From Lactococcus protaetiae (GTDB lineage Bacteria; Bacillota; Bacilli; Lactobacillales; Streptococcaceae), in contig NZ_CP041356.1 of the NCBI RefSeq assembly GCF_006965445.1, forward strand, positions 806,001 through 870,000: 64,000 bases of DNA, read 5' to 3'. Below, in pieces: positions 558 to 63,562 of this stretch (positions are counted from its first letter, which is position 1; every line of letters starts with the position of its first letter). The notes beneath the pieces are model-generated. The model was not told the origin of the DNA and made no database searches. It saw only the letters and a program-made list of their open reading frames with translations. Made by a program: the position numbers and the translations under genes.

Positions 558-2400
558 TGCGTGGAAATTATATGAATCGTGGCGGAGGTGGAGCAGAGCG
601 GTTCAAAAAAGTAAGACGAGCTGAAAATTTCTGGCCGACAATCGTCCGTTTGTTCAAATATATGCGTCGTGATATGTGGGGCGTGATTTTCTCCATGGTG
701 ATTGCTGCCATCTCTGTGATTTTGTCTGTTCAGGCGCCAAAAATTCTTGGGAATGCGACAACTGTTATCTTTAACGGAGTGACAACGAGTTTAAAGCTCA
801 ATCCATCCATCCATATTGATATGGCAAAGGTTGAGTCTATCTTGCTTTATGTTGCCGTGATTTATGTGATTAGTTTTATTTCGGGTGTTTTGCAACAGAG
901 CATCATGACACGGATTTCTCAACGGACGGTTTATGCGCTCAGACGTGAGTTTAAGGAAAAGATGAGAAAATTGCCAGTGAGTTATTATGATACGCATAAT
1001 AATGGTGATATCATGAGTCGGATGATTAATGATATGGACAATATCTCAGGCACTTTAAATCAGACATTGATTCAGCTTGTGACTTCAGTTTTACAATTTA
1101 TCGGGACGATTTATTTTATGCTGACCATTTCTTGGCAGTTGGCTTTGGTTGCTTTCATTACGGTTCCACTGGCAATGATTACTGTAAGAATTGTCGCCCC
1201 AATGTCACAAAAATATTTTGCCCAACAACAAAAAAATCTTGGACTTTTGAACGACCAAATCGAAGAAAATTATGCTGGACATACAGTAGTCAAAACTTTT
1301 AATCATGAAGAAGAAACTTTGGCGCGTTTTGCTAAACAAAATGATGATTTTTATCAAACGGCTTGGCGAGCACAATTTGTTTCGACTTTGATTTATCCAA
1401 CGATGAGATTTATTAATAACTTGGACTATTTGGCGATGGCCGTCATTGGTGGAGTTAAGGTGGTCTCAGGTACGGTAAATTTGGGGATGTCCAAGCCATG
1501 CTTCAATACACCAATCAATTTTCACAGCCCATCACAAATATTTCAAATATGCTCAATACGATTCAGGCAACAGTAGCTTCTGCCGAGCGTATTTTTGAAG
1601 TTTTGGACGAAGAAGAACTGACAGAAAGCGTAGATTCTCCTGTAAGTCGGCTTTCAGAGTCAGAAAATGCTGACAGTTTCATCAGTTTTGACAAAGTGGC
1701 ATTTTCTTACAATGAAAATCAACCTTTGATGACCAATGTCAATATTGAAGTAAAAAATGGTGAAATAGTGGCTATCGTTGGACCTACGGGTGCGGGTAAA
1801 ACTACAATGATTAATTTACTTGAGCGTTTTTATGATACGACATCTGGGGAAATATTGCTTGAAGGTAGAAATATCCGTGAGATGAAGCGAGAAAATCTAA
1901 GACGACGTATGGCGATGGTACTTCAGGAAACTTGGTTATTCAATGGGACAATCATGGATAATCTGCGCTATGGCAGGCTTGATGCGACTGACGAAGAAGT
2001 GATTGCTGCTTCCAAGATGGCTTATGCAGACGAATTTATTACTACTCTTCCTCAAGGCTATCAGACTGTTTTAAACGAAGAAGCGACAAATATTTCGCAA
2101 GGTCAACGGCAACTTTTGACGATTGCACGTGCATTTCTGGCTAATCCTGAAATCTTGATTCTTGATGAGGCGACGAGTTCAGTTGATACGCGGACAGAAC
2201 GCTTGATTCAAAACGCAATGAATCGTCTGCTCAAAGGGCGTACGAGCTTTGTTGTTGCTCACCGTTTATCAACCATTCGAGATAGCGACCAAATTTTAGT
2301 CATGAATCATGGAAATATCGTAGAAAAGGGCAATCATGAGCAGCTTCTTAACCAAGGAGGAATGTATGCTGACTTATATAACTCACAATTTGCTCAATAA
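554..2400 (+). pseudogene. ABC exporter subunit, canonical ATPase half (frameshifted; LmrD-like)
   Basis: The partner of the preceding subunit. It starts at ATG 554, 8 bases after a GGAGGG site, and has an ABC membrane domain of about six helices followed by an NBD with Walker A GPTGAGKTT, signature ISQGQRQLLTIARAFL and Walker B ILILDEATSSVD with the catalytic Glu. About 615 aa if repaired. The frame breaks at the GGGG run 1483-1486: one extra G restores NLGDVQAMLQYTNQF. As written, frame one ends at 1576 and the NBD continues from 1498. The stop codon is followed at once by a family A repeat. It is either a sequencing dropout or a real inactivation. Confidence 0.85.
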
Positions 2401-2607
2401 TGAAGTCAAGACTTATTCAGGGGAAGTTTTAACTTCCCCTGAATTTAAGGTACAACCTCACATCTTAGATATGAGGTCACCTTGTCCAAGAAACCTAGGC
2501 GCTAAAAGCGCCAACGTCCTATGGCAGTCGGACGAAACTCGAAGCTTTAGTGCTGCTTCATCCCCTACCTGCAAGGGAGGGAGGTTAGCACGCACTTGCT
2601 TTGATGA
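2400..2607 (+). repeat. Family A modular palindromic element (copy A1)
   Basis: Starts ATGAAGTCAAGACTTATTCA directly at the exporter stop codon and ends in CTTGCTTTGATGAAA. It contains a GGGGAAGTT/AACTTCCCC stem and a CCTCACATC...GATATGAGG stem. It lies between the exporter gene and its terminator. Confidence 0.85.
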
Positions 2608-2685
2608 AAAATGAAAAGTCTGTCAGTTCAATGCGCCCAAGGGAAGCATTGAATCGGCGAATAAAAGACTTATCAGCAGAGCTGA

Positions 2686-10127: not shown

Positions 10128-10155
10128 AAAAACTGCGATATATCGCAGTTTTATC
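10128..10155. terminator. Bidirectional terminator of hydrolase gene and acmA
   Basis: AAAACTGCGATATATCGCAGTTTT hairpin with an A run before it and T residues after it. acmA ends 245 bases away because copy A3 lies between. Confidence 0.85.
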
Positions 10156-10403
10156 AAAGCGAGTGCTTGCCTTGAATTTCGTCCGACTGCCCTAGGGCGT
10201 TAGTGCTCTAGCACTTAGGCTTCTGGGACAGGGTGACCTCATATCGAAGATGTGAGGTTGTACCCTAAATTCAGTGGTAAGTTGCCCTTTTGTCAGTCGC
10301 TTTGCCTGCTAAGCAAACGAACAGCGTAGCGCAGCGAAGATAGCGACTAGAGAAAATGGACAAATGTTTTATGAAACTCTCATTGAATAAGTCTTGACTT
10401 CAT
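10150..10403 (-). repeat. Family A element (copy A3)
   Basis: Runs from TTTATCAAAGCGAGTGC to GTCTTGACTTCAT. The TGA stop of acmA (10400-10402) is formed by the element terminus. Its internal CAGTCGC...GCGACTAG stem carries an extra nested module (GCTAAGCAAACGAACAGCG). Confidence 0.9.
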
Positions 10404-11912: not shown

Positions 11913-12318
11913 AGATTCTGTTATAATCGAGTGCGCAATACCAGAAGTTATGAGACTGGATGGTGGCACCTATGCTCTGTGAGCAAAACCGCATTTTTCT
12001 ATCTACGTGCTTTCAGTACATAAGCCAAGTGGCATTTCTCTCCGCTTCTTGACAGTATTGCTCACATCTTGTTATAATTGAGTTCGTACGATTAGAAATG
12101 AGTGAAAAAAGATAAATCTCTCCAAGAAACTTCGTTTCTCTCCGAGATTTTCTATTTTTCATCATTTCTTGCAAATCGTGCTCACATCTTGTTATAATTG
12201 AGTGCGGCTGCTTAGAACTCAGGAAAATAGATAAAAGTCTCCAATGAGCAAAGCTCATCTCCGTCTTTTCCTAATTTTCATGGGTTCTGGACAAACAGCC
12301 TCACATCTTGTTATAATT
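11913..12318 (+). promoter_or_regulatory. Tandem array of four promoters separated by long hairpins (family C units)
   Basis: Minus-10 TATAAT boxes lie at 11922, 12073, 12193 and 12312. Their -35 boxes are TTGATT (11900), TTGACA (12049), TTGCAA (12169) and TGGACA (12288), the last three with exactly 18-bp spacers. The sequence CTCACATCTTGTTATAATT recurs at each of the last three. Between promoters lie imperfect palindromes about 90 bases long (for example CGATTAGAAATGA ... TCATTTCTTGCAAATCG). All point toward the riboswitch and ATPase gene. Confidence 0.75.
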
Positions 12319-12326
12319 AAGAGGAA

Positions 12327-19411: not shown

Positions 19412-19665
19412 ATGAAGTCAAGACTTATTCAGTGTGAGTTTTAACTCGCACTGAATTTAGTCGGACGAAATTCAAGGCTTGCCATTCCGACTAGGTGCTT
19501 CAGCACCGTAGCGAGGATGGACAGCGTAGCGCAGCGAAGATAGTGTTGCTTTATCCCCTACCTAAGAGGTAGGGATATTGCGATTGCGACTAGATGCTTT
19601 AGCATCGTAGCGAGCATCGACAGCGTAGCCGCAAGGCGGAGATAGCACGCACTTACTTTGATAAA
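19412..19665 (+). repeat. Family A element (copy A4)
   Basis: ATGAAGTCAAGACTTATTCA to ACTTACTTTGATAAA. It contains GTGTGAGTT/AACTCGCAC, GGTGCTTCAGCACC, CCCCTACCTAAGAGGTAGGG and GATGCTTTAGCATC stems. Its right end abuts the nrdG ribosome-binding site. Confidence 0.9.
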
Positions 19666-20478: not shown

Positions 20479-21064
20479 TTTATCAGAGGAAGTGCGTGCT
20501 ATCTTCGCCCTTCGGGCTGCGCTGTCCGTTTGATTGCTATTTGGCGTTGCCTCCATTCTTGTCTTTAGTGACCCAGAGATAGAGGACAAATGTTCATCGG
20601 CACTTTAGTGCCTTACAACCAATGCCTTTTGCTCTTGCTGCTTTAGCGGCTAAGCAAACGGGTCATGCGAAACTAGCTACTAAAACAGTAAGAGCAAAAG
20701 GCAAAGCACCTAGTCGGAATGACAAACCTTGAATTTCGTCCGACTACCCTAGGGAGTTAGTGCTTTGCGTCTCGACTTGTGGCTTTATCCACTTAGCGAG
20801 CATGGATACCTGCGGTGTAGACAACGTAGCAAAGCGGAGATAGAGCGAATGGGTAACGAAGCGAAGCGGAGGTGTGACCTCATATCTTTGATGTGAGGTT
20901 GTACCTTAAATTCAGTGGGGAATTGCCCTTTTATCAGTCGAATCGCCTTTTGCTCTTGCTGCTTTAGCAGCTAAGCAAACGGACAGCGTAGCGCAGCGAA
21001 GATAGCGACTAGAGAAAATGGACAAATGTTCTACGAAACTCCCACTGAATAAGTCTTGACTTTA
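20479..21064 (-). repeat. Large nested family A mosaic (copy A5)
   Basis: About 585 bases from TTTATCAGAGGAAGTGCG to AAGTCTTGACTTTAT, the longest family A copy here. It contains at least ten short-loop hairpins and repeated modules (AGCAAACGGACAGCG, GCGAAGATAGCGAC, CGAAGCGGAG). The last bases supply the TAA stop of the adjacent DUF2325 gene. Confidence 0.88.
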
Positions 21065-21565
21065 TTTGAATAGTTTACCAAAATCAATGTCATCATCATC
21101 AATTTTGACTTGTGCTAATACTTTTTTTAGTGGTAAATTTTTCTTTTTTGTTTTTAGATAGGGCTGTAGTACTTGACGTTTAATAGTTTCTTGAAGAATT
21201 TTTTGAGGTTCATTCTGAGTTTTTGGATATTTTTTAAGTGACTTATTTGGGGATTTTGGTAACATAAAATTTTCTGATGGAAATGTTTCGTTGAGCTTGT
21301 TGATAATGGTCTCAATGCCAAAGTTACTGCTAATCCAAAAAGGTGTGCCAGTCATTTTGCAAGCTTCTTTGGCAAATCGGACAGAATGATGTGCAACGTT
21401 GCGATTGCGCATGATGACAAAGTCAGCCTTTGCAACAAGTTGATTGATTTCTGAGCGATTTGGTGTTTTTTTGTCAAAACCTAGAAAAGTGACGCCTACT
21501 TTTGAAAGAAGCGTCTGTAAATCTCCCCAGTATTTTGCCTCCTCAATGACTAATAATGTTTTCAT
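21062..21565 (-). CDS. DUF2325 family protein
   Basis: 167 aa. The N-terminal half (LLVIEEAKYWGDLQTLLSKVG ... FVIMRNRNVAHHSVRFAKEACKMTGTPFWISSNFG) matches the pattern of DUF2325, small Rossmann-like proteins of unknown role. The C-terminal half is Lys-rich and possibly disordered. The stop codon TAA lies inside the terminus of copy A5. No function is known to me. Confidence 0.65.
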   Translation of the reverse strand: MKTLLVIEEAKYWGDLQTLLSKVGVTFLGFDKKTPNRSEINQLVAKADFVIMRNRNVAHHSVRFAKEACKMTGTPFWISSNFGIETIINKLNETFPSENFMLPKSPNKSLKKYPKTQNEPQKILQETIKRQVLQPYLKTKKKNLPLKKVLAQVKIDDDDIDFGKLFK

Positions 21566-22996: not shown

Positions 22997-23904
22997 ATGA
23001 GTATTAAATTTGAAAAAGTAAATTACACTTACCAACCTAATACACCTTTTGCAAGTCGAGCGCTTTTCGATATTGACTTGGAGGTTCAAAAAGGGAGTTA
23101 CACAGCAATTATTGGGCATACAGGTTCTGGTAAATCTACACTTTTGCAGCATTTGAATGGACTCTTGCAACCGACAGAAGGGACTGTTACTGTCGGAGAT
23201 ATTGTCGTTAAATCAACGAGCAAGCAAAAAGAAATCAAACCTGTCCGCAAAAAAGTAGGGGTTGTTTTCCAATTTCCAGAAGCGCAGCTTTTCGAGGAAA
23301 CCGTGCTAAAAGACGTAGCTTTTGGCCCTCAAAACTTTGGTGTATCAAAAGAAGCAGCTGAAAAAATTGCTGCTGATAAACTTCAACTTGTAGGACTTGC
23401 TGAAAAGTTTTGGGAGAAATCACCCTTTGAGCTTTCTGGGGACAAATGCGTCGCGTTGCGATAGCGGGTATTCTCGCTATGGAGCCAGAGGTATTGGTGC
23501 TTGACGAACCAACGGCAGGACTTGATCCTAAAGCCCGTATTGAGATGATGGAACTTTTTGAAAGTATTCATGAATCTGGTCAAACGGTCGTTTTGGTGAC
23601 ACATTTGATGGACGATGTTGCAAATTATGCGGATTATGTCTATCTTCTAGAGAAGGGACGTATTATTAGTTGCGGAACGCCAGAAGATGTTTTTCAAGAA
23701 GTTGATTTTTTAAAGTCACATGAGCTAGGAGTACCCAAAGCAACGGAATTTGCGAGTCAGTTGCAGAAAACTGGAGCTGTTAGTTTTGATAAACTTCCGA
23801 TTACACGAGATAATCTTGTCAGTATGCTGACAGAGGCAAAATTTGGTACTGACAGAAACTTGTCAGAGCTGACAGACAAAAAAGGAGGTGAACACCATCA
23901 ATAA
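22997..23904 (+). pseudogene. ecfA2: ECF transporter ATPase EcfA2 (frameshifted)
   Basis: About 302 aa if repaired. Walker [11 protein letters not shown]-loop [25 protein letters not shown], Walker [15 protein letters not shown]. The frame breaks within the ABC signature: ELSG is followed by DKCVALR. One extra G in the GGGG run 23438-23441 gives [15 protein letters not shown] and joins both parts. EcfA2 is essential for ECF transport and the neighbours look intact, so a sequencing error is likely. The stop overlaps the start of ecfT. Confidence 0.9.
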
Positions 23905-25535: not shown

Positions 25536-27031
25536 ATGAAAAGAAAAATTTTTCCGATTTTGATGATTGTTTTGACAACATTTTTGACCTATTTGCCTTA
25601 CTTTAAAAATACTTTTGGGATTGACACCAGTACGATGATGCTTGATTCGCATGAAATGCTGGAGGGCTATCTCTCGCAAGGGCGTTTTGGTATTGTTTGG
25701 ATTTTCAACCTTTTCATTCATCATTATGACAATGCCCTTGTGCCTTTTCTGGTCGTCCCGCTTTTGGCACTTGCAGCGGTCTATCTTTTCTATCTCATCA
25801 GGCACTTTGATGAAAAATCTCGCCCATTTTCTGCGATGATTTTTGCAATTTTCTTTGTGAACAATCCTGTTGTGTATGCGCAACTTTATTTCAAGCTTCA
25901 AGCATTGGAAATCACACTTGGTCTGCTTTTTGTTCTTAGTGCAAGTCACATTTGCTTGACTGAAAAAATTCGCAGACCAGTAAAAATAATGCTCAGTACA
26001 GCCTTTCTCAGCCTCTCAATTTTGATTTATCAAAGTTTTGCTTTCTTTATCTTCTCACTTTTTCTTTTTTGGCTACTCATTTTGCCAAGGAAAAGAAAAA
26101 TCATATTTCAAAACTTTTTGCCAAGCTTGATGATTGCGGGACTGATTTATCTGTTGACCTACCTCCTCTATGCCATGAAAATCAACTATTCAAGCTATGG
26201 CAGTCAAACTTATCTCATGTGGAATAAATTTGCAAGTCTAGGACATCTTCATCAAGCCCTCATGCTTGTCATGCTGTTTGGAGTCTTAATTTATCTTGGA
26301 TTTATCTTCATCACAATCCGACGTGCTAAGCACAATCAACCCCTTGAAATGTTACTCATCATTTTATTATTTTTGTCCTTGTTCAGTTTCAACGTTGCTT
26401 TTGGCACAAGTACTAAAACACCAAGAATTTATTTTGGCACATTTTCTGCGGTTGTTATTGGCTTGCTTTACTACTGGAACAAGCCGAAGTTTTTCGGGAT
26501 TCTGGCTATTGCTTCAATGATTTTTACTTTCTCGCTCAGTTTTCATGCAAATCAAGCTTATCAAAATGACCTAAAACTCACGAATGAAGTCGCAGACCAA
26601 ATTTCGCAACATCAGGCGAAAACGGTAGTTTTCATTGGAAACTTACAAGAAGAAAATCTCGTCAATGAAGTCAAGACTTATTCAAGGGGAGTTTCAACTC
26701 CCCTGAATTTAGTCGGACGAAATTCAAAGTTAGTGCTGCTTCATCCCCTGCTCAAGAGGTAGGGATGTTAGCTCGCACTTACTTCGATAAATTTCAAGAT
26801 ATTTTCATCACAGGTGCGACGCGCAGCTCATTTTTCCAATTCGATGATCCATTGACATCTGACAGACCTTATAATTTTATGACCTTACAAGGTCATGCTT
26901 ATCCAGTCCCAGAGCAAGCATTACGGACAAGTCTTGTGTCAAAATATGCAGCATTGCCTGACTATCCTAATCCAGAAAGTGTCAAATTTGACAGCAATAG
27001 TCAAATTCTTGTGTTCAAACTATCAAATTAG
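25536..27031 (+). pseudogene. GtrII-like glucosyltransferase membrane protein, interrupted by a family A element
   Basis: The first part (to 26664) encodes about 376 aa with roughly ten membrane helices and the short extracytoplasmic motif FGIDTSTMMLDSHEMLEGYLSQGRFG, as in GtrII-type glucosyltransferase-domain proteins that modify cell-surface glycans. At 26665 a 127-bp repeat copy enters. After it, at 26792, coding resumes in another frame as FQDIFITGATRSSFFQFDD ... VFKLSN to the stop at 27031. The start is ATG 25536 with AAGGAG. The gene is probably inactive or makes a C-terminally altered protein. Confidence 0.8.
26665..26791 (+). repeat. Minimal family A element inside a gene (copy A6)
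   Basis: 127 bases, ATGAAGTCAAGACTTATTCA to ACTTCGATAAA, with one main stem GGGGAGTT-TC-AACTCCCC and one weaker stem. It defines the minimal mobile unit. No clear target-site duplication is visible at the junctions. Confidence 0.92.
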
Positions 27032-35127: not shown

Positions 35128-35139
35128 GGATATTTTTTA
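35112..35139 (+). terminator. Terminator of the SprT-like gene
   Basis: AAAAATATCC-GTTA-GGATATTTTTT. Its T tail overlaps the TTTATC terminus of copy A7. Confidence 0.8.
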
Positions 35140-35309
35140 TCAAAACAAGTGCGTGCTACCTCCGCCTTACGGCTACGCTGTCGATGCTCACTAAGGCGCT
35201 GAAGCGCCTAGTCGCAATCGCAATACTCCGACCTCTTGGGTCGGAGATAAAGCAGCCGACTAAATTCAGTGGTGAGTTGAAACTCCCACTGAATAAGTCT
35301 TGACTTCAT
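35136..35309 (-). repeat. Family A element (copy A7)
   Basis: TTTATCAAAACAAGTGCG to GTCTTGACTTCAT. It contains CTCCGACC-TCTT-GGGTCGGAG, where copies A4 and A8 have CCCCTACCT/AGGTAGGGG: both arms changed together. Confidence 0.9.
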
Positions 35310-37711: not shown

Positions 37712-37956
37712 TTTATCGAAGTAAGTGCGTGCTATCTCCGCCCTTTGGGCTACGCTGTCGATGCTCGCTAAGGCGCTGAAGCGCCTAGTCGCAATCGCAA
37801 CACCCCTACCTCTTAGGCAGGGGATGAAGCAGCACTAACTTTGAATTTCGTCCGACTAAATTCAGTGGCGAGTTGCCCTTTTATCAGTCGCTTTAGCGAC
37901 TAGAGAAAATGGACAAATGTTTTACGAAACTCCCACTGAATAAGTCTTGACTTCAT
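37712..37956 (-). repeat. Family A element (copy A8)
   Basis: TTTATCGAAGTAAGTGCG to GTCTTGACTTCAT. The rnjA stop TGA (37955-37953) is made by the element end. The loop of the GTGGGAGTT/AACTCGCCAC stem contains a second hairpin module with CAGTCGCTTTAGCGACTAG. Confidence 0.92.
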
Positions 37957-40165: not shown

Positions 40166-40590
40166 TTTATCGAAGTAAGTGCGTGCTATCTCCGCCCTTC
40201 GGGCTACGCGATAAACATTTGTCCGTTTTATCTAGCCGCTGAAGCGTCTGATAAAACGGCTGTCGATGCTCGCTAAGGCGCTGAAGCGCCCAGTCGCAAT
40301 CGCAACACCCCTCTACCTACCTCTTAGGCAGGGGATGAAGCAGCGCTATCTCCGCTTCGCTACGCTGTCCATTCGCTCTAAATCGCTAAAGCGATAAGGC
40401 GAAGTAGCAACTTTGAATTTCGTCCGACTGCCATAGCGCCTAGGCTTCTTGGACAAGGTGACCTCATATCTTTGATGTGAGGTTGTACCTTAAATTCAGT
40501 GGCGAGTTGCCCTTTTATCAGTCGCTTCAGCGACTAGAGAAAATGGACAAATGTTTTACGAAATTCCCACTGAATAAGTCTTGACTTCAT
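40166..40590 (-). repeat. Nested family A element (copy A9)
   Basis: TTTATCGAAGTAAGTGCG to GTCTTGACTTCAT, 425 bases. The right half resembles copy A5 (GACCTCATATC-TTT-GATGTGAGG stem). An ACATTTGTCCGTTTTATC module is inserted near the left end. Confidence 0.9.
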
Positions 40591-42981: not shown

Positions 42982-43103
42982 TGATAGTTTTGGCATTGTT
43001 CTGCATTGGCGAGTTCTGGTACGCTTTTTGTGCTAGGGCGGATACGAAGCACTGTAAATCATTGCTTTTTTACAATGATTTAGCTATGTACTAGTCCCGC
43101 TTT
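42982..43103. repeat. Family D-like hairpin segment
   Basis: GTAAATCATTG-CTTTTTTA-CAATGATTTAGC stem (about 43047-43082), similar in shape to the family D end at 43470. No gene. Confidence 0.4.
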
Positions 43104-43234
43104 GAAGTGATTACTTCATCAATGGGAGATTCTTTCTCTTCCACTGATGTTAGTAGAACGAAAGCAAAGCTTAGTGTTGCTTATCCCTCCACCTAAAAGA
43201 GGTGGGGGATTTAGCAGACACTTGCTTGGTTAAA
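43104..43234 (+). repeat. Family B element (copy B1)
   Basis: GAAGTGATTACTTCATCAAT to ACTTGCTTGGTTAAA, 131 bases. Main stem TGGGAGATTC-TTTCTC type, with TTAGTAGAACGAAAGC and CCACCT-AAAAG-AGGTGGGGG. A minimal family B unit. Confidence 0.88.
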
Positions 43235-44608: not shown

Positions 44609-44760
44609 TTTAACTTAGCAAGTGCGCGAAGCGGAGGTGTGACCTCATATCTTTGATGTTAAGCAGACTGTTGCAGCTTTAGCTACGTACAGGTCACCTA
44701 GAGGTTGTGTCCTAACATTGATGGGGAGAAAGAATCCCCCACCAATGAAGTAATCACTTC
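44609..44760 (-). repeat. Family B element (copy B2)
   Basis: TTTAACTTAGCAAGTGCGCG to GAAGTAATCACTTC, 152 bases. It shares the GAGGTGTGACCTCATATC and AGCAGACTGTT segments with copy B5. Confidence 0.85.
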
Positions 44761-44799
44761 AAATTGGATAGATCTCTTCAGTTTTTGAAAGGAAAGTTA

Positions 44800-49100: not shown

Positions 49101-49183
49101 TTCATCTTTATCAAAGCAGCTATTCTTTCAAAATGTGCCAATGCCTTATTGAGTGGTGCTAATAAGAATTTGTGTTAAGAATT

Positions 49184-49532
49184 GAAGTGATTACTTCATC
49201 AGTAGGAGATTCTTTCTCTCCTACTGACGTTAGTAGAACGAAAGCAAAGATTGCCATTTCGCCTTGTCGCTTTAGCGATTTAGAGCGAATGGACAGTGGA
49301 GCGAAGCGGAGATAGTGCTGCTTATCCCTCCACCTAAAGAGGTGGGGAGTTGCCACTCCGACTAGGTGCTTTGCCTTTTGCTCTTGCAAGCTTTGCTTGC
49401 TAAGCAAACGGACAGCGGAGCAACGAAGTTGCGTAGACTGTTCGCAGAACGGTGTGCGAAGCACGTAGCACCGTAGCGAGGATGGACAGCGCAGCCCAAA
49501 GGGCGAAGATAGCACGCACTTGCTTGGTTAAA
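49184..49532 (+). repeat. Nested family B element (copy B3)
   Basis: GAAGTGATTACTTCATCAGT to ACTTGCTTGGTTAAA, 349 bases. Contains CTTGCAAGCTTTGCTTGC, CGTTCGC-like and GGTGCTTTGCC hairpins. It fills most of the tpx-ABC gap. Confidence 0.88.
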
Positions 49533-55354: not shown

Positions 55355-56911
55355 ATGATGAAAATTACGATTTTAGAAACAAGCGATATGCATGGTTATA
55401 TTTTGCCGACGAATTATACAGCGCGTAACATGGATTTCCCTTTTTCGATGGCTAAGGCACAGACAAAGATGGAAGAACTTTCAGAAGTAGCGGATGGTCC
55501 TGTGATTAAGATTGAGAATGGCGATATTTTGCAAGGCTCAGCTCTGGCTTACTATCTAGCCAAACAACGTAAAAATGGGATTTCTGAGTTGACTGCTGTG
55601 ACTAATTCCTTTGGATATGATGTCGGTTTATTGGGAAATCATGAGTTTAACTATGGCATTGATTATTTGAAAAGTTATATTGATGGAGCAGATTATCCTA
55701 TTCTGACAGCAAATGTGTTTGACGAATCTGGAAATTTAGCATTTGGTCCCGCTTATAAAATTATTGAGAAAGACGGAATAAAAATTGCTGTGGTAGGACT
55801 TTTGACGCAGTTTATTCCACATTGGGAGCAACCTGAGATTATCAAAGGATTGACTTTTAAATCTATTGTCGAAGTGGCAAAAGAGTTACTTCCTAAACTT
55901 CGTGAACTCGCTGACATCACGATTGTTGCTTATCATGGCGGTTTTGAGCGCGATTTAGAGACGGGCTTACCATCAGAAGCGCTGACAGGCGAAAATGAAG
56001 GCTATCAGTTACTGACAGAATGTGGTCAGTGGATTGATGCATTTGTCAGCGGTCATCAGCACCGAAAAATTGCCCAAAATGTGCTTGGTGTACCTGTTGT
56101 GCAGCCGGCCTATCGTGGAGAAACTGTTGGAGAAATCACATTAGAATTTGATGAAAAAACAAAAAAAGTGACAGCTACAACAGCGCAGTTGCACGAAACA
56201 GGAACTTCAAAAATTAGCTCTAAAATACAACAATTAATTTCAGAAACTCATGAAGCAGCAGAAGATTGGCTTGACACTCCAATGGGAAAAATTTCAGGAG
56301 ATATGACGATTAGCCAGCCATCCGAAGCGCGAATTCATGAGCATCCTTACATCGAATTTGTCAATAAAGTACAAATGGAAGCAACAGGCTGCAAGATTTC
56401 TGGGACTTCCCTTTTCAATAATGAGGCTAAAGGTTTTGGGCAAATCGTGACGATGCGGGATATTTTGACCAATTACATTTATCCCAATACACTTGCTGTA
56501 CTGCGCGTGACGGGTCGTGATTTAAAGGCGGCGCTTGAACATACAGCAGAACATCTTGAGCGCTCCGCTTCAGGAGATATTATTTTTAGCCCACGTTTTA
56601 TTGAGCCTAAACCCCAGTATTACAATTATGATATGTATGAAGGAATTGATTATACGATTGATCTGAAAAAGCCTGTTGGTTCAAGAATTACACGACTTGA
56701 AATTGATGGTAAATCTGTCAGTGCTGACGAATTTTTAGATATTGTTGTCAATCAGTATCGCGCAGTTGGCGGAGGAAATTATGATATGTTTTCTGCTGAC
56801 AAAATTATCAAGGAAGTCACAGTAGACATGACAGAACTGATTGCCGAGTATCTCAAAGCACACCCAGTTGTTGAGGCGACAGCCAATCATAATTTTGAAG
56901 TATTGAAGTGA
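55355..56911 (+). CDS. 5'-nucleotidase / 2',3'-cyclic phosphodiesterase family metallophosphatase
   Basis: 518 aa. N-terminal calcineurin-like domain: LETSDMHGYI, GDILQGS, LLGNHEFNYG, VAYHGG and SGHQHR. C-terminal 5'-nucleotidase domain with TGRDLKAALEHTA and the NQYRAVGGGNYDMF signature. No signal peptide is visible, so it acts in the cytoplasm, unlike most UshA-like members. Together with the Ugp-like importer and the beta-CASP hydrolase it could process imported cyclic nucleotides or phosphoesters. The stop lies in copy B4. Confidence 0.9.
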   Translation: MMKITILETSDMHGYILPTNYTARNMDFPFSMAKAQTKMEELSEVADGPVIKIENGDILQGSALAYYLAKQRKNGISELTAVTNSFGYDVGLLGNHEFNYGIDYLKSYIDGADYPILTANVFDESGNLAFGPAYKIIEKDGIKIAVVGLLTQFIPHWEQPEIIKGLTFKSIVEVAKELLPKLRELADITIVAYHGGFERDLETGLPSEALTGENEGYQLLTECGQWIDAFVSGHQHRKIAQNVLGVPVVQPAYRGETVGEITLEFDEKTKKVTATTAQLHETGTSKISSKIQQLISETHEAAEDWLDTPMGKISGDMTISQPSEARIHEHPYIEFVNKVQMEATGCKISGTSLFNNEAKGFGQIVTMRDILTNYIYPNTLAVLRVTGRDLKAALEHTAEHLERSASGDIIFSPRFIEPKPQYYNYDMYEGIDYTIDLKKPVGSRITRLEIDGKSVSADEFLDIVVNQYRAVGGGNYDMFSADKIIKEVTVDMTELIAEYLKAHPVVEATANHNFEVLK

Positions 56912-57014
56912 TTACTTCATCAGTGGGAGATTTTTTCTCTCCCACTAGCTTAGTGCTGCTTATCCCTCCACTTTAAAAGAGGTGGGGGATTTGGCAGGCA
57001 CTCGCTTGGTTAAA
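56905..57014 (+). repeat. Minimal family B element (copy B4)
   Basis: GAAGTGATTACTTCATCAGT to ACTCGCTTGGTTAAA, 110 bases. The metallophosphatase stop TGA (56909-56911) is part of the GAAGTGATTACTTC terminus. GTGGGAGA-TTTTTT-TCTCCCAC stem. Confidence 0.92.
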
Positions 57015-59992: not shown

Positions 59993-61324
59993 ATGACATA
60001 TATTGACGAAATAAAAAATCTTGTTGTTCAGAAAAATCCTTCTGAACCCGAATTTCATCAGGCGGTACATGAAGTTTTGGATACCCTGCGACCTGTAATT
60101 GAAGAAAATGAAGCTCATTACCGACGTGATGCTATTTTAGAGCGATTAGTAGAGCCTGACCGATTGATTCAATTTCGTGTTGCTTGGGTGGACGACGCTG
60201 GTCAAGTACAAGTCAATACAGGATATCGAGTGCAGTTTAACAATGCAATCGGTCCTTACAAAGGAGGATTGCGACTGAGGGAAAATGTTTATAGTGGTAT
60301 TGTTAAATTTCTTGGCTTTGAACAAATATTTAAAAATGCATTAACTGGTTTGCCTATTGGTGGAGCAAAAGGTGGCTCTGATTTTGACCCAAAAGGTAAA
60401 TCGGACCGTGAAATCATGGCATTTTGTAAAGCCTTTATGAGTGAACTTTACAACTATATCGGTCCTGATATTGATGTTCCAGCAGGTGATATTGGTGTTG
60501 GAGGGCGTGAGATTGGTTATCTTTATGGTCAATATAAACGGCTCACACATAGATATGAAGGGGTATTGACAGGAAAGGGCTTGAGTTTTGGTGGTTCTTT
60601 AGCTAGGACAGAGGCAACAGGGTATGGTTTGCTGTATTTTGCTGATGCCATGTTAAGAGCTAATGGCTTGAGCTTTAAAAATCAACGTGTTGTTATCTCT
60701 GGTTCTGGAAATGTGGCGATTTATGCTGCTGAAAAGGCAGAACAACTTGGGGCGACGGTTGTAGCTTTGTCGGATTCTTCAGGCTATATTTATGATGAAG
60801 CAGGGATTGACCTTGCAGTAGTCAAAGAGATTAAAGAAAAACGCTATGGACGAATTGTGGAATATCTGGACATTCATCCTCAGGCACAATATAGTGCTGA
60901 TGATGGGATATGGAGTGTTCCTTGTGATGTGGCGCTTCCCTGTGCAACACAAAACGAATTAAACTTAGAAGATGCTAAAAAACTTGTTGCCAACGGCTGT
61001 AAAGCAGTAGCCGAAGGTGCAAATATGCCAACAAGTCGTGAAGCAACAGAATATTTACAAGAACAAAAAGTTTTATTTGCGCCAGGAAAAGCAGCAAACG
61101 CAGGAGGAGTAGCCGTTTCTGCTCTAGAAATGTCTCAAAACTCTGAACGCCAAGTTTGGACGTTTGATAAAGTAGATGATAAGTTAAAAACAATTATGGA
61201 AGATATTTTTGCAAAGTCTGACGAAGCGGCAAAACGTTTTGGTTTTTCAGGAAATTATGTCGTAGGTGCGAATATCGCCGGTTTTGAACGAGTTATCGCT
61301 GCCATGCAAGCTCAAGGTATTTAA
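59993..61324 (+). CDS. gdhA: NADP-specific glutamate dehydrogenase
   Basis: 443 aa. Catalytic Lys in PIGGAKGGSDFDPKGKSD, PAGDIGVGGREIGYLYGQYKRL, Rossmann VVISGSGNVAIYAAEKA and CATQNELN. The 440-450 aa hexameric class uses NADPH to make glutamate from 2-oxoglutarate and ammonia, and in lactococci it supplies 2-oxoglutarate for amino-acid transamination. AAAGGAA precedes ATG. The TAA stop is part of copy B5. Confidence 0.95.
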   Translation: MTYIDEIKNLVVQKNPSEPEFHQAVHEVLDTLRPVIEENEAHYRRDAILERLVEPDRLIQFRVAWVDDAGQVQVNTGYRVQFNNAIGPYKGGLRLRENVYSGIVKFLGFEQIFKNALTGLPIGGAKGGSDFDPKGKSDREIMAFCKAFMSELYNYIGPDIDVPAGDIGVGGREIGYLYGQYKRLTHRYEGVLTGKGLSFGGSLARTEATGYGLLYFADAMLRANGLSFKNQRVVISGSGNVAIYAAEKAEQLGATVVALSDSSGYIYDEAGIDLAVVKEIKEKRYGRIVEYLDIHPQAQYSADDGIWSVPCDVALPCATQNELNLEDAKKLVANGCKAVAEGANMPTSREATEYLQEQKVLFAPGKAANAGGVAVSALEMSQNSERQVWTFDKVDDKLKTIMEDIFAKSDEAAKRFGFSGNYVVGANIAGFERVIAAMQAQGI

Positions 61325-61934
61325 CTTAGCAAGTGCGTGCTAGTTCCCCCACCTCTTAAAGGTGGCGGGATAAGCAGCACTATCTCCGCTTCGCTACTCT
61401 GTCCATTTGCTCTATCTCCGTTTCACTGCGCTGTCGATTCTCGCTACGGCACGGACGTGCCTAGTCGAAGTCGCAAATCGCTACGTGCTTCGCCCGCCGT
61501 TCTACGAACGGTCTACGCAACTTCGTTGCTCCGCTGTCCGTTTGATTGCCATTTGGCGTTGTACAGCCAATGCCTTTTGCTCTTGGGGCTTTAACCCCTA
61601 AGCAAACGATAAGGCGAAATGGCAAACTCTGTTTTCGTTCTGCCCTAGGGTCTTAGCGCTTAGACTTCAGGGACAAGACCACTTCGCCTTGCGACTTTAG
61701 TCGATTGCGATTTGAACTTGCCACTTTAGTGGCTTAGTGAAATTGACAGCGCAGTGAAACGGAGATAGAGCCGAATGGATAACGAAGCGAAGCGGAGGTG
61801 TGACCTCATATCTTTGATGTTAAGCAGACTGTTTCAGCTTTAGCTGCGTACAGGTCGCTTAGTTGTTACACCTAGAGGTTGGGTCCTAACATTGATGGGA
61901 GAGAAAGAATCCCCATCAATGAAGTAATCACTTC
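61320..61934 (-). repeat. Largest nested family B element (copy B5)
   Basis: TTTAACTTAGCAAGTGCGTG to GAAGTAATCACTTC, 615 bases without a gene. It carries more than ten hairpins with TTTA, TTAG or GAAG-type loops (for example GGGGCTTTAACCCC, CTAAGCAAACG) and the GAGGTGTGACCTCATATC segment. It lies between gdhA and the terminator shared with the converging exporter gene. Confidence 0.9.
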
Positions 61935-61949
61935 AATCACGTAAATAAA

Positions 61950-63381: not shown

Positions 63382-63562
63382 ATGAAGTCAAGACTTATTC
63401 AGTGGGAGTTTCATAAAACATTTGTCCATTTTCTCTAGCCGCTGAAGCGACTGATAAAAGGGCAACTCCCCACTGAATTTAGTCGGACGAAATTCAAAGC
63501 TTAGTGCTGCTTTATCTCCGACCTAAGAGGTCGGAGTATTAGCACACACTTGTTTTGATAAA
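63382..63562 (+). repeat. Family A element (copy A10)
   Basis: ATGAAGTCAAGACTTATTCA to ACTTGTTTTGATAAA, 181 bases. CTCCGACCTAAGAGGTCGGAG stem, and the loop of the GTGGGAGTT/AACTCCCCAC stem is filled with the AGCCGCTGAAGCGACTG module. It lies upstream of lmrR. Confidence 0.92.

Follow-up and report, generated by a model that had tools for sequence, protein, structure and literature searches.

A hairpin-rich mosaic element of family A adjoins nrdG (88% identity to the nrdG of Lactococcus taiwanensis) at positions 20479-21065 of the window, the 64,000-nucleotide stretch of the Lactococcus protaetiae chromosome that was analysed here. Read on the minus strand, it runs from the target AT through a left-end hairpin, hairpin 1 and further modules to a right end in ...ACTTCCTCTGAT, which is followed by AAA. 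The tip of hairpin 1 is opened by a Z module, whose own tip is opened by a 59-nt module. In another genome (G001), the same locus is an empty site, ATAAA, and the element is absent. Its parts, with the evidence used to delimit them in brackets, are as follows.

20479-21065, minus strand: family-A mosaic element, with the target AT...AAA on both sides, an insert of about 20482-21063 and ends that fit the family
21051-21062, minus strand: left-end hairpin AAGTC-AA-GACTT (sequence; in every A copy used)
21038-21051, minus strand: hairpin 1, 5' arm, its tip being the Z module entry point (sequence; pairs of short and long copies)
21004-21036, minus strand: Z module, 5' half (ACATTTGTCCATTTTCTCTAGTCGCT)
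20945-21003, minus strand: 59-nt module (ATCTTCGC...GAGCAAAAGGC) in the Z module tip (entry-point pairs)
20926-20944, minus strand: Z module, 3' half, limits approximate
20908-20925, minus strand: hairpin 1, 3' arm, limits approximate (sequence)
20875-20908, minus strand: Y module hairpin (GGTACAACCTCACATC...GATATGAGGTCAC) (entry-point pairs)

Further elements of this kind, built on the family-A or the family-B backbone, are found throughout the window.

2400-2608, plus strand: A element; empty site ATGAA in G001
10150-10403, minus strand: A element whose Z tip holds a shorter module, of 38 nt
19412-19665, plus strand: A element; empty site ATAAA in G001
26665-26791, plus strand: unmodified A backbone, short form, GGGGAGTT-TC-AACTCCCC with a two-base tip; one of seven copies with such an architecture
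35136-35309, minus strand: A element with plain hairpin 1
37712-37956, minus strand: A backbone with Z module and a right-hand T-class module; carries the ACATTTGTCCATTTTCTC module
40166-40590, minus strand: A element with Z, Y and several T-class modules; carries the ACATTTGTCCATTTTCTC module
43102-43234, plus strand: family-B backbone
44609-44762, minus strand: family-B element
49182-49532, plus strand: family-B element; empty site TTAAA in G001
56903-57014, plus strand: family-B element
61320-61936, minus strand: long family-B mosaic; empty site TTAAA in G001
63382-63562, plus strand: A backbone with Z module (the ACATTTGTCCATTTTCTC module); eight copies with such an architecture

The original prediction had described a series of growing forms, and each of its steps is present: a two-base loop (the TC tip at 26665-26791), a module in the loop of hairpin 1 (37712-37956, 40166-40590 and 63382-63562) and a third module in the tip of the second hairpin (10150-10403 and 20479-21065). 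In the three elements of the middle step, the inner hairpin of the ACATTTGTCCATTTTCTC module is AGTCGCT-AA-AGCGACT or its GA variant, the AA tip reading TTTA on the opposite strand. A separate palindrome, TGTCAGTATRCTGACA, is intergenic and often adjoins the mosaic elements while forming no part of them; it lies in the window at about 2694, 3360, 9442, 15280, 20399, 23819, 34654, 47372 and 57096. The window also contains a 99-nt hairpin-containing repeat in two diverged copies (12104-12202 and 12223-12321, 72%), each ending in a promoter-like TTGTTATAAT. At 22997-23904, an energy-coupling-factor ATPase-like gene is broken into the overlapping frames 22997-23464 and 23446-23904, the break, in the Walker-B/signature region, being due to a frameshift or to a sequencing error.

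The 2.70-Mb genome to which the window belongs (G000) harbors about 400 such mosaic elements on its two backbones, as counted by left ends: roughly 221 of family A and 186 of family B (TTGAAGTGATTACTTC), a total of about 407. There are 37 A and 47 B left ends in G001, about 107 of family B in G015, whose element copies show the same organisation when inspected by eye, and 0-3 in the other Lactococcus genomes searched. At a sampled mean of 286 bp per element, the 407 left ends would amount to roughly 4% of the chromosome. Family B has a different backbone, yet its inner modules are the same as those of family A. The elements were studied in 41 stretches of G000 (658 kb), namely the window and 40 others picked around element matches, mostly forward-strand ones, and in 400 kb of G001, which is 89-94% identical to G000 at the window's locus. 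All but one of 149 complete elements lie outside long open reading frames, confirming that they are abundant short intergenic palindromes. Diversity is high, with 115 distinct architectures among the 146 complete elements compared, of which 108 occur once; among those that recur are bare A (127-130 nt, seven copies), bare B (130-134 nt, 11 copies) and A with Z (eight copies). In another Lactococcus species (G006), a unit of about 166 nt with a K module forms three head-to-tail repeats at about 1380-1880 of stretch L011.

Comparison of empty with filled sites places the entry of both backbones at WT^AAA with a duplication of at most 2 bp. Of the elements, 41 have both flanks mapped to one place in G001, and about two-thirds of these show a precise empty site there; with standard spacing, family-A empty sites read ATAAA in 12 of 13 cases and ATGAA in the other, and family-B sites read TTAAA in three of four. 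The corresponding filled sites are AT[GAAGTC...CTTTGAT]AAA for A and TT[GAAGTG...AAGTT]AAA for B. From the flanks alone, no target duplication above chance was found, and the element ends are weakly alike, with no clear terminal inverted repeats. A preference of whole backbones for palindromic genomic sites was considered and rejected, as strongly complementary flank pairs number 7 against 5.7 +/- 2.1 after shuffling; the mean flank energy of whole elements is slightly below the shuffled value and no more. Just one element in the sampled DNA is filled in G000 and G001 alike. As a separate observation, A elements sit exactly at the stop codon of an upstream frame of at least 80 codons in 15 of 84 cases, compared with one of 168 control frames; examples are the left ends at 21062, 10400 and 37953 of the window, among others. 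Because an A element begins with GA, the stop is regenerated, TAA becoming TGA.

The growth of the elements themselves was followed by aligning all pairs of the same family and calling an insertion clean when its 16-nt flanks matched at 85% or better. Across the 149 complete elements of the window and the 40 other stretches, 2719 pairs of short and long copies give clean insertions, and the nested series is real. The pairs merge to 138 contexts, 32 of them recurrent (at least three short copies). Placement is ambiguous by a modal 0-2 nt at 31 of these 32 points, so the insertions are attributable neither to chance nor to alignment slack. Modules are mostly 40-65 nt long. In the element at 20479-21065, hairpin 1 is entered at GAGTTT^CAACTC (40 long copies), the Z tip at AGTCGCT^RAAGCGACT (24 short and 15 long) and the Y module point is GAATTT^AGTCGG (29 short and 33 long). 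Two other heavily used points, ACCTC^ACATC (26 long copies) and GGTCAC^CTTGTCC (17), lie in a stem or between hairpins. The tip stems of K modules switch complementarily, as units, which shows that hairpin shape is kept, either by selection or by copying between arms. For the G-T versus A-C asymmetry that separates RNA from DNA folding, just five stems are informative.

Where modules enter was compared with chance by giving each junction, in 1000 rounds, a random position in its own short copies, for the 32 recurrent points, with loops and stems taken from single-sequence energy predictions. In these predicted structures, hairpin loops carry 26% of site weight against 13.6% expected, about a two-fold excess, and interior loops 30% against 23%, while stems are depleted, at 37% against 51.5%; none of 1000 permutations reached the hairpin-loop or the stem value. 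Judged by predicted folds, it is right that loops are favoured and stems avoided, yet more than a third of site weight still falls in stems. The original prediction, that the insertion machinery prefers the loops of palindromes, therefore holds in part. Module boundaries do not fall at random within stems, and insertions at tips are seen again on another backbone in a second species; the backbones, however, target WT^AAA rather than palindromes, and new modules do not always enter at the unpaired tip, since points in interior loops, between hairpins and in some stems are equally clear. A sequence preference accompanies that for loops. The motif T^TAG (CTA^A on the opposite strand) occurs at 12 of the 32 points, compared with 3.2% of random junctions, and loop position and motif are largely confounded. 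Rerunning these entry statistics on the small samples of 14 and 16 elements extracted from G001 and G015 yielded no recurrent sites.

A replicate of the system in another Lactococcus species (G013) helps to separate the two factors. Families A and B are essentially absent from this genome, and a third backbone (CTGCAAATATACTGCC...GTTAAACAGTAT) is present, with four unfilled copies, three of 106 nt and one of 111 nt as extracted. In other copies, modules of the K or Z type fill the tip CTTGCGC-TA-GCGCAAG and the tip GGTTTGCG^TAAAACGCAAAC, or a T-class module lies between two hairpins. Nesting recurs here as well: one Z module sits in a second one's tip (L192), and the interior loop of K that is filled in G000 holds a module here too (L196). 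Because both of the backbone tips lack T^TAG, structure appears to play a separate part. This third backbone (CTGCAGATATACTGCCTT...AAACAGTAT) also occurs in G000 (L099, L102, L108, L112, L123 and others), some copies being filled with the same modules.

The reading preferred here, to which about an even chance is given, is that of two-tier non-autonomous mobile DNA. In the first tier, the A and B backbones enter intergenic DNA precisely at WT^AAA and duplicate no more than 2 bp, which the empty sites show. In the second, small hairpin modules form clean insertions, probably gained in most cases, at a limited number of points in the backbones and in each other, with hairpin and interior loops favoured and T^TAG the most frequent site; a trans-acting enzyme may integrate them into folded DNA, whether single-stranded or cruciform. 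The target would then be the unpaired part of a hairpin, often with T^TAG, rather than the hairpin tip as such. Because many modules supply new GCTT^TAGC loops, nesting can feed itself.

A rather unlikely alternative that nonetheless accounts for much of the pattern is sequence-specific insertion into duplex DNA, at T^TAG for modules and at WT^AAA for backbones, with the loop bias as a side effect: the sequence at tips is GCTTTAGC by coincidence, and insertions into stems disappear as they spoil the element. The sharing of T^TAG by 12 of 32 points agrees with it, as does the equal use of T^TAG contexts in interior loops (8 of 11) and tips (7 of 13). The same rule would, however, send modules to ordinary intergenic T^TAG, of which the sampled DNA has 2114, 1355 outside elements and 759 inside. 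Placement by these counts predicts that about 152 of 237 module clusters lie outside elements, an indicative ratio that is biased by the picking of stretches around element matches. Instead, 174 clusters are inside paired elements, 54 have an element end no more than 400 bp away, and at most 9 lie away from any, nearly all of these 9 visibly in degenerate mosaics. Tip entry points without T^TAG also exist, namely hairpin 1 and the two G013 tips. Modules are nearly confined to hairpin arrays, and the T^TAG sequence is unlikely to account for entry by itself.

Mobility might instead be limited to the backbones, the mosaics arising by homologous recombination, gene conversion or replication template switching between the hairpins of different copies. 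Template switching at quasi-palindromes is an established process, mosaics have blocks in common, and K-module tip stems, which switch complementarily and as whole units, fit such copying. The proposal is nevertheless judged improbable, as the same module occurs at non-homologous points (Z in hairpin 1, at GACA^GCGTAG and in a G013 tip) whose joins share no sequence beyond 0-2 nt, and the same modules occupy the unrelated backbone of another species. Least credible by far is that the long forms are ancestral and the series records precise module loss: some single-copy short forms are plainly deletions, but many entry points are filled in 1-6 copies and empty in 7-16, the rarity of filled states pointing to gain at most points, the base forms are the commonest architectures and are present in G013 too, and the sequence common to the joins is too short for slippage.

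If modules are integrated in trans, as the two-tier reading has it, the enzyme apparently belongs to a class other than the obvious ones. On the points that define IS200/IS605-derived elements (absence of a target duplication, hairpins at the ends and a fixed target), the present elements have a WT^AAA target, a duplication of at most 2 bp and a hairpin beside the left end. Searches for the Y1 (RAYT/IS200) transposase, PF01797, gave no match in the G000, G001, G013 and G015 assemblies, with positive controls. Reverse transcriptase (PF00078) had no match in G000, which speaks against a retroelement. Mobilisation by IS110 was likewise rejected for want of a genuine transposase match in this genome, the one sub-cut-off hit to the DEDD enzyme lying in an ATPase-type dehydratase activator-like protein and being spurious. 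No autonomous copy was found in the sampled DNA, where the open reading frames in the ten longest inter-end spans examined resemble ordinary housekeeping genes by their sequence starts, and plasmids, phages, viral contigs and Rfam gave no matches to the elements. From these results a more specific proposal can be put forward tentatively, as possible though doubtful: that in this bacterial system, one not described before, gene-free hairpin modules enter the unpaired loops of other hairpins, mainly at T^TAG, by means of an enzyme that is neither an HUH transposase, a reverse transcriptase nor IS110 but of some other class, so that nested palindromes amplify themselves, like those of Volvox organelles.

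Among known repeats, the streptococcal BOX and RUP are MITE-like short non-coding intergenic sequences, BOX being modular. The present elements differ from them in having no clear terminal inverted repeats, a duplication of at most 2 bp and no parent insertion sequence in the examined DNA; a MITE of a DDE transposase, which should have both such repeats and a target duplication of the usual length, was rejected. REP, BIME and REPIN sequences with their RAYT (e.g. PMC2817692, PMC3116915) are similar in numbering hundreds of gene-free intergenic palindromes in mosaic arrangement. Membership of the REP/RAYT family fails on the transposase, the carriers having no Y1 match in four genomes, and growth is by nested insertion rather than through REPs in tandem or in pairs. 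Among bacteria, the mobile DNA that comes closest in its choice of palindromes is that of the insertion sequences targeting REPs, IS1397 and ISKpn1 (IS3) and IS621 (IS110) (Tobes and Pareja 2006, PMC1525189), although there gene-carrying insertion sequences enter hairpins and here gene-free hairpins do.

The closest analogue comes from an alga. Mitochondrial and plastid DNA of Volvox carteri contains intergenic hairpin repeats with a mean of 50 nt and loops of TTTA/TAAA (Smith and Lee 2009, PMC2670323), which are nested in one another into elements of several hundred nucleotides by a mechanism that is unknown (PMC2670323). The GCTTTAGC tips and nested insertions of Lactococcus match this description, a likeness of organisation for which no common descent is claimed. 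In place of organelle DNA, the host here is a bacterial chromosome, with two backbones that have WT^AAA targets and empty sites, and with constant-ended modules. No report of such elements in Lactococcus was found in open-licence papers. Nested palindromic mobile DNA is already known; the bacterial host, the two tiers and the exact entry rules are new here. The elements offer a bacterial, experimentally tractable case of palindromes growing inside palindromes, which was found described solely from organelle DNA and without a mechanism. Whether the folded loop is the target becomes directly testable in Lactococcus, given the empty sites, the exact rules of entry and the recurrence of the system in a second species.
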